From a virus: a stretch of DNA of 23,868 nt. The notes under the pieces were generated by a model. The model made no database searches, was not told the DNA's origin, and saw only the letters and a list, made by a program, of their open reading frames with translations. Below, piece after piece: positions 3,139 to 21,729 of the stretch. The position numbers and the translations under genes are program-made. Within the stretch, counting starts at the first letter, position 1. Each line of letters opens with the position of its first letter. The DNA lies in IMG/VR virus record IMGVR_UViG_3300027816_000402, positions 1-23,868 of that record; one strand, written 5' to 3'.

Positions 3139-3174
3139 TTGACTTTTTAACAAAACTATGGTATAATTATTATA
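3139..3174 (+). promoter_or_regulatory. Sigma70-type promoter between portal and scaffold genes
   Basis: The -35 box TTGACT (3139..3144) and the -10 box TATAAT (3162..3167) are separated by exactly 17 nt, and TG one base before the -10 (3159..3160) makes it an extended -10 as well. Standard spacing puts +1 at 3174, the A of the ATG of the 84-aa gene. It lies in the only real gap (42 nt) of the early structural cluster, upstream of scaffold and capsid. This is a visible near-consensus match; activity is inferred. Confidence 0.85.
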
Positions 3175-4122: not shown

Positions 4123-5106
4123 ATGTCACAATTAACTTCAAATACTACTGCTTTTATTGAAGCACAACAGTATTCTCAGTTCATTCTTGACAACTTACAC
4201 GACTTCTTATTGCCAGAAGGTTTATACAGAGATGTAACAGACTTCGGATCTGGTACTACTTTAAACATTAAGACAGTTGGTACAGTTACACTTCAAGATG
4301 CTGCTGAAGATACACCTTTAGCTTTTAATCCTATCGACACAGGTACAATCACACTTTCTATCACTGACTATGTTGGTGACGCTTGGAAAGTTTCTGATGA
4401 ACTTCGTGAAGATGGTGCTCAAGTTGATGCACTTATGTCAATGCGTGCTATGGAATCTACTCGTGCTCTTGGTGAAAACCACGAATCACGTTTCTTAGCT
4501 GTAGCAAACGGTGCACAAACTAATGCAAACGTAAACTTAGTAAATGGTCGTCCACATCGTTGGGTAGCTGGTGGTTCAGGTGCTTCAACTCGTGTTATGA
4601 CTTTAAGCGACTTTATTGCTATGAAATTAGCATTTGACAAAGCTGGCGTTCCTGCTGGTGGTCGTATCGCTATTGTTGATCCAATTGTTGAAGCTACTTT
4701 AAATAGCATCACCAACTTGGTATCTGTTTCAAACAACCCAATGTTCGAAGGTATCGTAACATCAGGTTTTGCTCGTGATCATAAGTTTGTTAAAAACATC
4801 TTCGGTTTCGATGTATGGACTTCTAACTACTTACCAGTTAAAACTGCAACTGAGGCATTAAATGCTTCTTCTTACGGTTTAGCTAATGACACTGCAGAAA
4901 TTGGTGACGTTGCTAACGTATTCATGAGCGTAGCTGATGATTCAACAAAACCAGTTATGCACGCATGGAGACGAGCTCCTAAGACAGAAGGCTGGAGAGA
5001 CAACGAAGAACGTGCTGATAAGTATCAAGTAACATCACGCTTCGGTTTCGGTGCCCAACGTGTTGACACACTTGGCGTTATTTTAACAAGTGGTTCTACA
5101 TACTAA
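4123..5106 (+). CDS. Major capsid protein
   Basis: 327-aa shell protein, HK97-fold family by relation to T7 gp10-type capsids (345 aa). Recognisable parts are the N-arm (MSQLTSNTTAFIEAQQYS), FLLPEGLYRDVTDFGSGTTLNIKTVG, and KNIFGFDVWTSNYLP near residue 225. An AAGGA ribosome site precedes the ATG. Codon use differs from the neighbours: most arginines are CGT/CGC and many codons end in C (TTC, AAC, ATC), while the large genes downstream favour AGA, which fits selection for very high expression. The first 17 residues recur almost unchanged at the start of the 39-aa protein at 7024. Function is secure from gene order and sequence. Confidence 0.93.
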   Translation: MSQLTSNTTAFIEAQQYSQFILDNLHDFLLPEGLYRDVTDFGSGTTLNIKTVGTVTLQDAAEDTPLAFNPIDTGTITLSITDYVGDAWKVSDELREDGAQVDALMSMRAMESTRALGENHESRFLAVANGAQTNANVNLVNGRPHRWVAGGSGASTRVMTLSDFIAMKLAFDKAGVPAGGRIAIVDPIVEATLNSITNLVSVSNNPMFEGIVTSGFARDHKFVKNIFGFDVWTSNYLPVKTATEALNASSYGLANDTAEIGDVANVFMSVADDSTKPVMHAWRRAPKTEGWRDNEERADKYQVTSRFGFGAQRVDTLGVILTSGSTY

Positions 5107-18766: not shown

Positions 18767-20641
18767 CTAGATTTCACAAGTTCCACCAGTACAAGCTAAT
18801 GTCTGTGCACCTGTAGTATTATCTTCTTCTTCTTTAAAATTTTCCCAATCAATAACTTTAGGAGTCTTTGCAAGAAGCTCTTCGTATTGCTCTTTAGTAC
18901 AATCTTCGTAAGGAGCTTGTTGATATGTATGATTAGAGTGTGGTAAGAATGATACACCACTAATCTCATCAAAGTGTTTCCATACCCATGCACCTACTTC
19001 AACCCAGTCTTCATCTTTAACAGAGATAGTTACTGAAGGTTTATGTTCACACCAGTGACGTTGATAGACCAACCAATTGTCTAATTGTTCAATTGAGTTC
19101 TTATCATTTCTAAGAATAGCATTTTTAGGTGCCATCATTGGGAATGAGAACACTGCTGTAGAGTCAGGTCTAAACACTTCATCTTCTACTGCAACACCTT
19201 TGTCTTTGAGATAGTGATAGATTGGATCTTTTTTATCCATGCGTATGCGTCGAATATAAAAGTCATTGTGACGAGCATGGATACCACTAGCGGAATCAAC
19301 CAACTGCGATACAGTCCCTGAAGGCTTAACACAAGTGATAGAAGTAGAACATGGTATACCAAGTTTCTCAGCATACTCTTCATTTGTTTTTCTAGCGACA
19401 TCTCTTAACCTTTCTAACATCTTAGGATCAGGATTACTTGTAATCTCAGCATCCATAATACCAGTTAAACTAACACCAAGAAGTCTTTCTTCTTCAGTAT
19501 TCTTTTTCCATTCAGAAGATAAGAATTGGAAGTTAGTTAAAGTTGACTGAATTGTACCGAGTATTGTTGCGAGTCTAACTTTCTTGACAAGTGTAGGCTC
19601 GGTATCATTTGCTCGTACAACCACTTCCGTAAGGTTGCAGAATTGTTTATCACGCAAGATAATTTCTGAGCATGGATTGGTTCCGTAACTGAGAGTTGGA
19701 TCTCGTCTTCCCCACTTATTTGCTTGATTTTGAGCAGCAATACGATTAAAGATTCCACGTTCACCTGACTTGGATTTAACCAAAGATAGCCACTCTTCCA
19801 TGAAAGTTTCACTATCTGGTCGCTCTGTGTAGGCAACTGAGTTATTTGCGAGTCCTCTGTGTGGATGATCATTATACCATGCTCCCATTTTAGCTTCACG
19901 CATACGTCTATCAGTAAGATTAGATAGAGAAATAAGTGCTGATCTTCTTACACCACCTACTACTACAATCTCACCAATCATACACATAATGTCGTGAACT
20001 TCGATTGATGTTAATTTACGACCTATAGCTTGTTTAAACGTCTCAACTACAAAGTCAAATAATTTCTTAAGAGGTTCAGGACCACTAGCACGACCTCCAA
20101 ATACTTTAAGTCTTGTGCCAGCAGGACGAACTTTACTGAAATCAAATGTAGGAATATCTCCTTCCCATAAAGAAGATAAAAGTTTTTTAAATGCTTTAGC
20201 CCAACCTAGCTTACTGTCTTCTACAAATATTACATCATCACAGTATTTTAGCTCAGCAGGTACTTCAGGAAGTTTAGAAATCTCTTGACGTTCACAAGAG
20301 AATCCAACTCCTGTACCGTTCATGAGTATATATAGAGCTTCACTAAAAGCACGTTTATTATTAACAGCAAGATAACTACAGTTATAAGCAGCGATATTAT
20401 CTCTTTCACAGGCTTCTCCAGCAGTCATGAGTAATCTCATAGATGGCATGACTTCTAAGTTTAAAACAGCACTATGTAAATCTTTCCAATCATCATCAGT
20501 TAAATCTACTTTAGTACGAAGGTAATCAGTTAATCTTGTTACAGTTTCATCCCATGTCTCACGTCTATTCTTTTCAGGAATGAATCGAGCATATCTGCTC
20601 ATCGCAATTACTTCTTGGTAAACACTTGGTAAACTACTCAT
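18767..20641 (-). CDS. Class II (adenosylcobalamin-dependent) ribonucleoside-triphosphate reductase
   Basis: Makes dNTPs from ribonucleotides with a radical started by coenzyme B12, needing no oxygen and no second subunit. The start at 20641 is in an ATGAGTAG overlap with the preceding gene. In the 624-aa product: Cys88 in AAYNCSY and Cys335 in QFCNLTEV as the substrate-reducing pair, NPCSE with thiyl Cys324 and Glu326, MNGTGVGFS near 108..115, VKPSGTVSQL near 438..447, and a C-terminal redox pair CTGGTC (617..622). This matches the monomeric RTPR type (Lactobacillus enzyme 739 aa); the phage form is shorter, so some allosteric or insert region is probably missing. Expected role: supply DNA precursors during replication, with dependence on host B12. 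Confidence 0.92.
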   Translation of the reverse strand: MSSLPSVYQEVIAMSRYARFIPEKNRRETWDETVTRLTDYLRTKVDLTDDDWKDLHSAVLNLEVMPSMRLLMTAGEACERDNIAAYNCSYLAVNNKRAFSEALYILMNGTGVGFSCERQEISKLPEVPAELKYCDDVIFVEDSKLGWAKAFKKLLSSLWEGDIPTFDFSKVRPAGTRLKVFGGRASGPEPLKKLFDFVVETFKQAIGRKLTSIEVHDIMCMIGEIVVVGGVRRSALISLSNLTDRRMREAKMGAWYNDHPHRGLANNSVAYTERPDSETFMEEWLSLVKSKSGERGIFNRIAAQNQANKWGRRDPTLSYGTNPCSEIILRDKQFCNLTEVVVRANDTEPTLVKKVRLATILGTIQSTLTNFQFLSSEWKKNTEEERLLGVSLTGIMDAEITSNPDPKMLERLRDVARKTNEEYAEKLGIPCSTSITCVKPSGTVSQLVDSASGIHARHNDFYIRRIRMDKKDPIYHYLKDKGVAVEDEVFRPDSTAVFSFPMMAPKNAILRNDKNSIEQLDNWLVYQRHWCEHKPSVTISVKDEDWVEVGAWVWKHFDEISGVSFLPHSNHTYQQAPYEDCTKEQYEELLAKTPKVIDWENFKEEEDNTTGAQTLACTGGTCEI

Positions 20642-20819
20642 ATATATCGTATTCCTCTTCTTCGTTATCAATCTCTTTTGCAAGAGCATCCATGTTGTCT
20701 TCTATTTTATCTTGAAACTTTTCTACTATTTCTTCTGAAGTTATGTTAAGTAATTCTAATAACATAGTTTCATCGTACTTCTTTAAGTGCTCACAAATTT
20801 CTTCAAATGTTAATTGCAT
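20634..20819 (-). CDS. Small acidic protein upstream of the reductase (61 aa)
   Basis: Function unknown. The start at 20819 (MQLTFEEICEHLKKYDETML) has AGGTGAG upstream and lies 1 nt after the stop of the 75-aa gene; a longer ORF start at 20846 would run into that gene. The product is helical and very acidic, with LLELLNITSEEIVEKFQDKIED in the middle and a DNEEEEYDIYE tail. The middle segment recalls a small protein family common in podoviruses (unverified). It overlaps the reductase start by 8 nt, so the two are translationally coupled. Confidence 0.7.
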   Translation of the reverse strand: MQLTFEEICEHLKKYDETMLLELLNITSEEIVEKFQDKIEDNMDALAKEIDNEEEEYDIYE

Positions 20820-20820
20820 T

Positions 20821-21048
20821 TTAGTAGTGCTCACCTGTATTACCATTTTGACCTATGACATCTATTCTAGTAACTTGTTGAACTTCACCTGTAGATTTAT
20901 TAAGTTCGTATTCAGGCAACATGTCTTCTGTTGTTAGCTTCTGTTCCTTGATTCTCTTTCCGAAAATACGATCCCAATTGTCTTGTCCATCCTTGGATAA
21001 GGGTTTTGACACGAGCCTTGCTCCCGTGTGTTCGTTCTGACTTGCCAT
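20821..21048 (-). CDS. Small hypothetical protein (75 aa), 'WDRIFGKR' type
   Basis: Function unknown. It begins MASQNEHTGARLVSKPLSKDGQDN and then has WDRIFGKRIKEQK, a motif I recall from small phage proteins; the C-terminal half is polar. AAGGAG stands 7 nt before the ATG, one of the best ribosome sites in the leftward unit. It ends 1 nt before the next ATG. Its first 137 nt also lie within the 3' end of the DUF3310 reading frame. The ribosome site and motif argue that this frame is really translated. Confidence 0.7.
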   Translation of the reverse strand: MASQNEHTGARLVSKPLSKDGQDNWDRIFGKRIKEQKLTTEDMLPEYELNKSTGEVQQVTRIDVIGQNGNTGEHY

Positions 21049-21247
21049 ATTCTAACTCCTTTAATAACTCTACATAGTGTATAACTTTATCTAGATCTTC
21101 TAGACCATTCTTTTCTCTCCATCTACAGATATATTTTATCACATTACCTTCTATAAATGGAATTTTATTCTTTGTAATAAATTCGATAGGTTGTATCTCA
21201 AACTGCTTGTAGTGATTACCACTTACTTGCTTATCTAGTGCACTCAT
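20912..21247 (-). CDS. DUF3310-family protein with a long C-terminal extension (111 aa)
   Basis: Residues about 8..65 (QVSGNHYKQFEIQPIEFI, EGNVIKYICRWREKNGLEDL, KVIHYVELLKEL) are a clear DUF3310 domain, a small phage family of unknown biochemistry often seen with nucleotide metabolism genes. The start at 21247 is chosen because GGAGG lies upstream; the longer ATG at 21268 falls inside the preceding microprotein. After residue 65 the frame continues 46 residues as a basic extension (SERTHGSKARVKTLIQGW...) with no look of the family, all of it overlapping the 75-aa gene in another frame. The domain is certain; the extension may be translated overlap or the result of a lost stop. Confidence 0.78.
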   Translation of the reverse strand: MSALDKQVSGNHYKQFEIQPIEFITKNKIPFIEGNVIKYICRWREKNGLEDLDKVIHYVELLKELEYGKSERTHGSKARVKTLIQGWTRQLGSYFRKENQGTEANNRRHVA

Positions 21248-21248
21248 T

Positions 21249-21356
21249 TTACTCCTCCATGTCATCATAAAACCGTTTAAACATATAAAATACTAATACC
21301 AATAAAGGTAGTATAATTATTATATGTAAAACGTATCCAATAAATTCTTCCACCAT
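21249..21356 (-). CDS. Single-pass membrane microprotein (35 aa)
   Basis: A short frame, ATG at 21356, ending 1 nt before the DUF3310 start. The product begins MVEEFIGYVLHIIIILPLLV, continuing as LVFYMFKRFYDDMEE: acidic N-terminus, one membrane span of about 18 residues (9..26), basic KR after it and an acidic end. A promoter immediately upstream puts +1 at 21353, inside codon 1-2, so translation must use the GTG second codon leaderless or mRNA arriving from upstream. An AGGG 9 nt before the ATG could serve the latter. Possible roles are holin-like or inner membrane; none is shown. Confidence 0.55.
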   Translation of the reverse strand: MVEEFIGYVLHIIIILPLLVLVFYMFKRFYDDMEE

Positions 21357-21388
21357 AATATTATACCCTGTTTAAACAACTTTGTCAA
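21353..21388 (-). promoter_or_regulatory. Consensus sigma70 promoter on the minus strand
   Basis: Read on the minus strand, TTGACA (21388..21383) and TATAAT (21365..21360) are both perfect consensus with a 17-nt spacer. The -35 box contains the TGA stop codon of the SprT-like gene. Predicted +1 is near 21353. It would drive the microprotein, DUF3310, 75-aa, 61-aa, reductase, 44-aa and SLOG genes as a sub-operon. Match is seen directly; activity is inferred. Confidence 0.85.
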
Positions 21389-21729
21389 ACAAATTTTTCT
21401 TTATTTAACATTAAAACTTCACATATTTCATCTGCAATTTGTCTAAACTTTTCTTCATGTTGATTATAATCAGTATGTCCATTATAAAACAAATACAAAT
21501 GAACCATTTCATGAAGTAAAGTCTCATTAAGTAAATGGAAGTTATTGTTATAAGTAGTGATTTGTATTCTCATTGGATAAGGAATAAACATACCTAAATA
21601 ATCCTCGTCATTAGTCACTTCAAACGTAACTTTTCTAGCTGGAGGCATACGTTTACTACAAAAAGGAGGAAGTGTTATATAGCAATCATATAACTTACGA
21701 AGGAATCTTTTATCTAGTATTTGACTCAT
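21385..21729 (-). CDS. SprT-like zinc metallopeptidase
   Basis: 114 aa with the SprT/Spartan signature LLHEMVHLYLFYNGHTDYNQHEEKF: His73-Glu74-x-x-His77 (HExxH) as the zinc and catalytic site, and His91 as third ligand. Cellular SprT/Spartan proteases digest proteins crosslinked to DNA; here a role in clearing DNA-bound or capsid-external proteins is guesswork. It lacks a C-terminal zinc ribbon often seen in bacterial SprT and is short. The ATG overlaps the upstream stop (ATGA). The stop codon lies inside the -35 box of the downstream promoter. Confidence 0.83.
   Translation of the reverse strand: MSQILDKRFLRKLYDCYITLPPFCSKRMPPARKVTFEVTNDEDYLGMFIPYPMRIQITTYNNNFHLLNETLLHEMVHLYLFYNGHTDYNQHEEKFRQIADEICEVLMLNKEKFV

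Follow-up and report, generated by a model that had tools for sequence, protein, structure and literature searches.

The lake-virus genome studied here, a 23,868-base virus record referred to below as the window, carries a perfect sigma-70 type promoter at the end of its SprT-like gene, and the spacer of this promoter holds one copy of a palindromic octamer, GTTTAAAC, that is enriched in the genomes of the window's closest kin. Taking the parts together, we consider it probable that the promoter gives rise to a short mRNA for the gene block beginning with DUF3310, and that a 35-residue hydrophobic frame lying between promoter and DUF3310 is read as a microprotein from a longer, read-through mRNA, with the octamer sitting in the promoter spacer. 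The genome-wide octamer, with one copy in a promoter, is the part of this arrangement that a specialist would not expect.

The window phage is related to the Methylophilales phages MEP401 and MEP402, which have been assigned to the Zobellviridae (PMC10580990); the MEP401 match shows 71.5% identity across 57% of a 4.9-kb query. Structural genes occupy the plus strand of the window, while replication and metabolism genes occupy the minus strand. Among the latter, the SprT-like metalloprotease-type gene (21385..21729, minus strand, 114 aa) matches PF10263 with an E-value of 5.5e-08 (33.1 bits against a cut-off of 25.6), its HExxH motif being present as HEMVH, and the DUF3310 gene (20912..21247, minus strand, 111 aa) matches PF11753 with an E-value of 1.6e-12 (47.7 bits against a cut-off of 24). 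DUF3310 heads the block that the promoter serves; it begins with an ATG at 21247, with an alternative longer in-frame start at 21268, and its Shine-Dalgarno sequence, GGAGGAG (21252..21258, minus strand), lies within the last codons of the small hydrophobic frame. Further down the same block lies a ribonucleotide reductase gene (18767..20689, minus strand, longest-ORF coordinates; phrog_367, E 5e-183).

The promoter (21360..21388, minus strand) is composed of a TTGACA -35 box (21388-21383) and a TATAAT -10 box (21365-21360), both hexamers being perfect (12/12) and separated by 17 nt, i.e., within the 16-18 nt typical of sigma-70 promoters, while the TGA stop codon of the SprT gene (21387-21385) sits within the -35 box. 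This is the sole perfect match to TTGACA-17-TATAAT in the window, as compared to an average of 0.06 in dinucleotide shuffles; other promoter-like sites reach at most 10/12 in a 20-kb scan, and a site at 3139, located outside that stretch and found in a separate scan, reaches 11/12. Transcription from sigma-70 promoters usually starts 6-9 nt beyond the -10 box, and the start predicted from this geometry, 7 nt past the box, falls at position 21353 (minus strand), in codon 2 of the small frame. What is unusual about this otherwise ordinary strong promoter, judged by its sequence, is its economical placement. The preliminary description of this locus had reported the perfect promoter with the SprT stop in its -35 box, the end of the small frame 1 nt before the DUF3310 ATG and a predicted +1 on the G of a GTG second codon, and all of its statements of fact hold on direct reading.

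Comparison with relatives indicates what the promoter serves. Among SprT relatives on viral contigs, all 15 readable loci possess both perfect hexamers with the stop codon inside the -35 box, the membrane frame being present in eleven and absent in four (L012-L015); both hexamers are likewise perfect in 33 of 33 SprT-type loci among DUF3310 relatives with enough upstream sequence (34 were listed, L037 being too short); and in a comparison of close and distant SprT relatives, for which 51 of 80 loci were examined (L159 and L195 being too short), the perfect promoter with its embedded stop was found in 17 of 17 readable close relatives versus none of 32 readable distant ones, although these locus sets overlap and contain many near-identical contigs, so that the counts are not independent. 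In the distant relatives lacking the promoter, the genes downstream of SprT differ or no clear gene follows. Spacer positions vary among ten distinct 29-nt promoters, a set chosen for perfect hexamers. In the promoter-bearing loci without the small frame (L012-L015, L038-L060 and L174-L175), the promoter is separated from DUF3310 by a short leader, mostly with AAGGAG, which in the window's closest kin is replaced by ~107 nt containing the small open frame. MEP401 has TTGACT-17-TATAAT before DUF3310, with neither an SprT gene upstream nor a small frame at that position. The proposal that the promoter feeds the microprotein was thus not borne out: since relatives outside the closest kin keep the promoter without the frame, it is conserved for DUF3310 and the genes downstream, and, on the comparison of these loci, it is with this block that the promoter goes and not with the peptide.

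Two further arrangements were observed. In L014, the promoter is followed by a GC-rich insert (4370-4545) and then by another gene, which replaces most of DUF3310; the insert, a folding stretch of ~130 nt, returned no Rfam or tRNA match. Furthermore, perfect TTGACA-16-TATAAT sites occur near positions 100-470 in L066, L077, L083, L095, L096, L100, L104 and L106, followed by a leader that may fold into a small stem-loop and then by a gene starting MIIEIIDVG or MIVEIIDVG.

The small frame (MVEEFIGYVLHIIIILPLLVLVFYMFKRFYDDMEE; 21249..21356, minus strand), a candidate membrane microprotein, begins 3 nt downstream of the -10 box with an ATG at 21356 and closes with a TAA 1 nt before the DUF3310 ATG. 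Among the SprT and DUF3310 relatives compared, it is restricted to the window's closest kin: the carriers show 85-99% DUF3310 identity to the window, versus at most 73% for relatives without the frame. The DUF3310 and SprT trees leave the grouping of the carriers unsettled, and ‘clade’ is therefore used here as shorthand for this set. Five haplotypes of 35-36 codons were found, none of which is interrupted by a stop; a single length change at the 3' end preserves the closure at the DUF3310 start, which is achieved either by TAA plus 1 nt or by an ATGA overlap, that is, with two different stop codons. All five contain a hydrophobic span (KD17 2.57-2.84), and the conservation of an open, hydrophobic frame, as envisaged in the preliminary description, is in this respect upheld within the clade.

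The selection signal is modest. NG86 dN/dS of the small frame is 0.33-0.58 between the main lineages (roughly 0.3-0.6 when rounded), compared with 0.09-0.28 for SprT and 0.15-0.83 for DUF3310; these values are below 1 yet nearer to 1 than those of SprT, and they derive from about three lineages of a single clade with recombination near by. The latter is illustrated by the window and L005, which differ with a dS of 0.55 in SprT and only 0.08 in DUF3310 (window 20912-21729), and this discordance for the same pair points to a recombination break near the promoter. The comparison of the frame with its synonymous sites, which had been proposed as a check, thus came out in favour of a protein in direction, while its size makes it modest evidence for a real one. 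Searches of PHROGs and Pfam returned no family match for the small frame, and a word search of a literature collection returned no paper on small membrane proteins of phage early genes with an internal promoter.

It could be argued that the sequence preceding DUF3310, downstream of the promoter, serves as an untranslated leader, in which an open frame arose by accident in AT-rich DNA. The preliminary description took a promoter retained without the membrane frame as the sign of such a leader; this is the situation outside the clade, i.e., in four of the 15 loci and throughout the more distant SprT-DUF3310 relatives, whereas within the clade the frame is kept. The modest selection signal is compatible with a leader, as is the finding that short hydrophobic frames are common in the window, where, of the 48 frames of 30-60 aa that start with ATG, three (the small frame included) attain the hydrophobicity of the weakest relative. 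However, all five haplotypes are open, their changes are conservative and both of their stop codons fit the DUF3310 start; in a neutral simulation across three lineages, the frame stayed open in 14% of cases and was both open and as hydrophobic as observed in 0.16%. The alternative reading frames of the region contain stops. In addition, the RNA is not more structured than its shuffles (folding z -1.1 to +1.2) and has no match to an Rfam family, and a structured leader or riboswitch was rejected on these grounds. We consider an untranslated leader somewhat unlikely; translation of the small frame has, in our judgement, roughly even chances or a little better, and a membrane microprotein is a plausible product.

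In three other loci (L072, L073 and L080), a lipoprotein-like frame of ~50 aa with an LSCSGC motif lies just upstream of DUF3310; its ATG follows TATAAT directly, and it is perhaps a second small membrane-type frame starting in a promoter.

If the small frame is translated, the geometry suggests from which mRNA. At the usual distance from the -10 box, an mRNA would begin beyond the ATG of the small frame, so that the peptide would come only from mRNA reading through from SprT. A weak Shine-Dalgarno-like stretch, AGGG (21366..21369, minus strand), putatively functional, lies 9 nt before the ATG, and AGGG or AAGG is found at this distance in all five haplotypes; both this stretch and the ATG are present in the read-through mRNA, and the former only there. 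Translation confined to the read-through mRNA, one of two possibilities raised in the preliminary description, therefore fits the geometry, and it retains the standing of a prediction from promoter position.

The other possibility, a leaderless microprotein started from the GTG with which the short mRNA is predicted to begin, did not survive. Although a GTG occupies the predicted +1 in six of eleven loci, and a TATAAT-N6-ATG geometry exists elsewhere in these phages, codon 2 is GTA in the remaining five (L002, L003, L010, L011 and L019; two of the five haplotypes), with the frame otherwise intact, and at usual spacing the 5' end coincides with codon 2 and not with the start codon. The GTG-leaderless start is consequently rejected as scarcely credible.

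A related alternative is that transcription starts from the A of the ATG, unusually near the -10 box; this would make the short mRNA leaderless for the microprotein and would also cover DUF3310 in L061, L119 and their kin. The DUF3310 ATG indeed lies only 2-3 nt after TATAAT in L061, L071, L076, L119 and L130, of which L119 has no good Shine-Dalgarno sequence by eye; this would be odd if such ATGs were always lost, and the exclusion of the small-frame start codon from the short mRNA is hence not certain. Nevertheless, such a start would depart from the usual sigma-70 spacing of 6-9 nt, and 6 nt is also the clear mode in these phages: among 1,020 non-redundant ORFs, 16, which derive from a few gene families, have TATAAT exactly 6 nt upstream of the ATG and none has it at 4, 5 or 7 nt, a second group being found at 20-21 nt. 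The ~6-7 bp given for Deinococcus leaderless genes in PMC12340547 also speaks against it. We regard a start at the ATG as improbable, and the read-through mRNA is retained as the predicted source of the peptide.

Leaderless geometry of the 6-nt kind was observed at other genes. A second mid-operon promoter, TTGACT-17-TATAAT (3139..3167, plus strand), was found by scanning and has the same layout in L109 and MEP401; in the window, the ATG of an 84-aa gene following the portal gene lies exactly 6 nt past this TATAAT, at 3174. Similarly, in L061-L082 and L025 (MEP401 gp21), which have no SprT gene upstream, TATAAT mostly stands 6 nt before the ATG, and DUF3310, or the gene in its place, is predicted to be carried on leaderless mRNA in these loci.

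The promoter spacer contains the palindrome TGTTTAAACA (21369..21378), within which the octamer GTTTAAAC occupies 21370-21377, and 95 bp away the small frame contains a second copy (21275..21282). The octamer occurs nine times in the window (positions 1979, 10404, 12039, 14322, 17417, 20032, 21275, 21370 and 23249), versus 0.84 times in shuffles. A census of 42 records found 120 sites in the 188,555 bases of the 14 records of the clade, i.e., ~0.64 per kb or about one per 1.6 kb, versus five for the reversed-word control (G016 and G017, whose contigs end before the small frame, were counted in the clade by SprT identity); 24 sites in 326,944 bases of the 15 SprT-DUF3310 records that lack the frame (G011-G014 and G018-G028; control ten); and 31 sites in the remaining 13 records, of which 13 were in G041 and six in G035. 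Among 256 palindromic octamers, GTTTAAAC ranks first in five of five clade genomes as well as in G041 and G035, and not in any of the seven other genomes tested; MEP401 has no copy. The word is strict, as one-mismatch forms are not generally enriched: the exact octamer stands at 4.6 versus 0.8 per 10 kb, while eleven of the twelve one-mismatch forms are similar or lower, the exception being GATTAAAC (0.64 versus 0.17).

The possibility that the octamer is a host-wide word was rejected, as in 300 genomes drawn from the order of a Polaromonas MAG the density does not exceed 0.04 sites per kb (82 sites over ~2.0 Mb) versus ~0.64 in the clade, although this order may not be that of the host. A search for capsid relatives in genome contigs, aimed at the host, found none, and a scan of genome contigs for clustered octamers returned scattered organisms among the matches listed. 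In the Polaromonas MAG itself (G042:C42:6931-7139), copies of GTTTAAAC are spaced at 21-bp steps, resembling a binding-site array. A word search of a literature collection returned no paper on overrepresentation of GTTTAAAC in phages.

Most copies lie in coding frame as xxG-TTT-AAA-Cxx, and codon usage might thus be held responsible. Synonymous-codon shuffles, however, failed to reproduce the octamer count in the five clade genomes tested; coding octamers numbered seven against 0.84 expected in the window, eleven against 1.04 in G002 and ten against 1.41 in G005, with none of 300 shuffles reaching the observed count in any of these three, whereas outside the clade the corresponding figures were three against 1.28 in part of G014, one against 0.72 in part of G011 and none against 0.64 in MEP401. 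At the seven coding sites of the window, the octamer is kept at 23 of 23 homologous positions in aligned clade genomes, compared with two of 26 in other relatives, and 22 of 22 compared octamers are kept as against 0.42-0.62 expected per site from codon retention in the same genes, even though shared ancestry of the compared genomes means that the retained sites are not independent. Moreover, some copies lie exactly between a Shine-Dalgarno sequence and an ATG (L156 at 8521, 10162 and 10374; L245 at 8214), a position that is not codon-driven. Based on the shuffles, the retention and these Shine-Dalgarno-to-ATG sites, the octamer network is selected, and by these measures the selection acts on DNA. 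Three of the small genes with the octamer between Shine-Dalgarno sequence and ATG belong to an octamer-dense row without assigned function in L156 (7500-10541), at the far end of the replication block.

We read GTTTAAAC as the site of a putative protein that binds or modifies DNA sequence-specifically, and the copy in the spacer of the promoter at the end of SprT as possibly placed to act on this promoter. Pfam searches with ten proteins gave no match to a helix-turn-helix partner, the records being incomplete, and visual inspection of the ORF list brought up no methyltransferase or helix-turn-helix protein; genes common only to the octamer-rich genomes (the clade, G041 and G035) were short, mostly antisense-looking frames. 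The spacer copy could alternatively be a chance occurrence of a word that is driven by codon usage or selected for other reasons, with no regulatory role there. The prevalence of coding-frame copies is in keeping with this, as is the loss of the spacer octamer from L008, whose record (G007) is the densest in octamers; the shuffles, the retained sites and the Shine-Dalgarno-to-ATG copies weigh against a codon-driven word, and at the density observed a copy would fall in a 17-nt spacer with a chance of ~0.6%. We judge a chance spacer copy to be only slightly short of probable.

In the mechanism that we favour, host RNA polymerase would fire the strong promoter at the end of SprT and thereby produce a second, shorter mRNA for the block from DUF3310 to ribonucleotide reductase. 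Early on, the longer mRNA may yield a small membrane protein with a single span, whereas the shorter one would yield DUF3310 alone, from its own Shine-Dalgarno sequence; a protein bound at the spacer octamer would lie between the -35 and -10 boxes and could close the promoter or set its timing. If the read-through model is correct, a single overlap would set the proteins made from two mRNAs, forming a compact switch. The fuller proposal, in which a protein of this phage clade recognizes GTTTAAAC and the copies, selected in genes, between Shine-Dalgarno sequence and ATG of early genes and in the one perfect promoter of the replication block, together form a palindromic control network spanning the phage genome, strikes us as unlikely; if true, the octamer would decide between the short mRNA (DUF3310 only) and read-through (with the microprotein), and the overlap of promoter and small frame would be a genuine two-state switch. 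The octamer network is the weightier part, as it represents a clade-limited palindrome selected against synonymous drift; it would mark an undescribed DNA-binding or DNA-modifying activity in freshwater phages, with the 8-bp site as a handle on the putative partner.

Like sigma-70 promoters that lie within phage operons and overlap the end of an upstream gene, the promoter described here combines consensus hexamers and 17-nt spacing with a position at a gene boundary, and serves a downstream block; it differs in that the upstream stop codon lies in the -35 box in all close relatives and in that the discriminator of one clade contains the start of a small frame. The adjoining of -10 box and start codon recalls the leaderless mRNAs of Deinococcus (PMC12340547), and the exact 6-nt spacing of that type is seen at MEP401 gp21, in most of L065-L082 and at 3174 of the window; at the small frame, in contrast, the spacing is 3 nt, by which the ATG would be lost from a short mRNA. 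As a strict octamer palindrome at high density, GTTTAAAC resembles the HIP1-type palindromes of cyanobacteria, which are linked to methyltransferases and characterize bacterial genomes (PMC4390886), while here an AT-rich word marks a phage clade in which no methyltransferase was noticed by eye. The stoperators of mycobacteriophage L5 and its kin (PMC9283540) are likewise short sites with many copies genome-wide, some of them in promoters and intergenic gaps, and the many selected copies of GTTTAAAC, with one in the spacer at 21370, agree with this pattern; L5-type stoperators, however, are asymmetric 13-mers, and the repressor that binds them has helix-turn-helix-type domains, whereas GTTTAAAC is a strict 8-bp palindrome found mostly within genes and, being exactly palindromic, cannot be oriented with transcription. 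Finally, the phages MEP401 and MEP402 (PMC10580990) carry related genes in this block.
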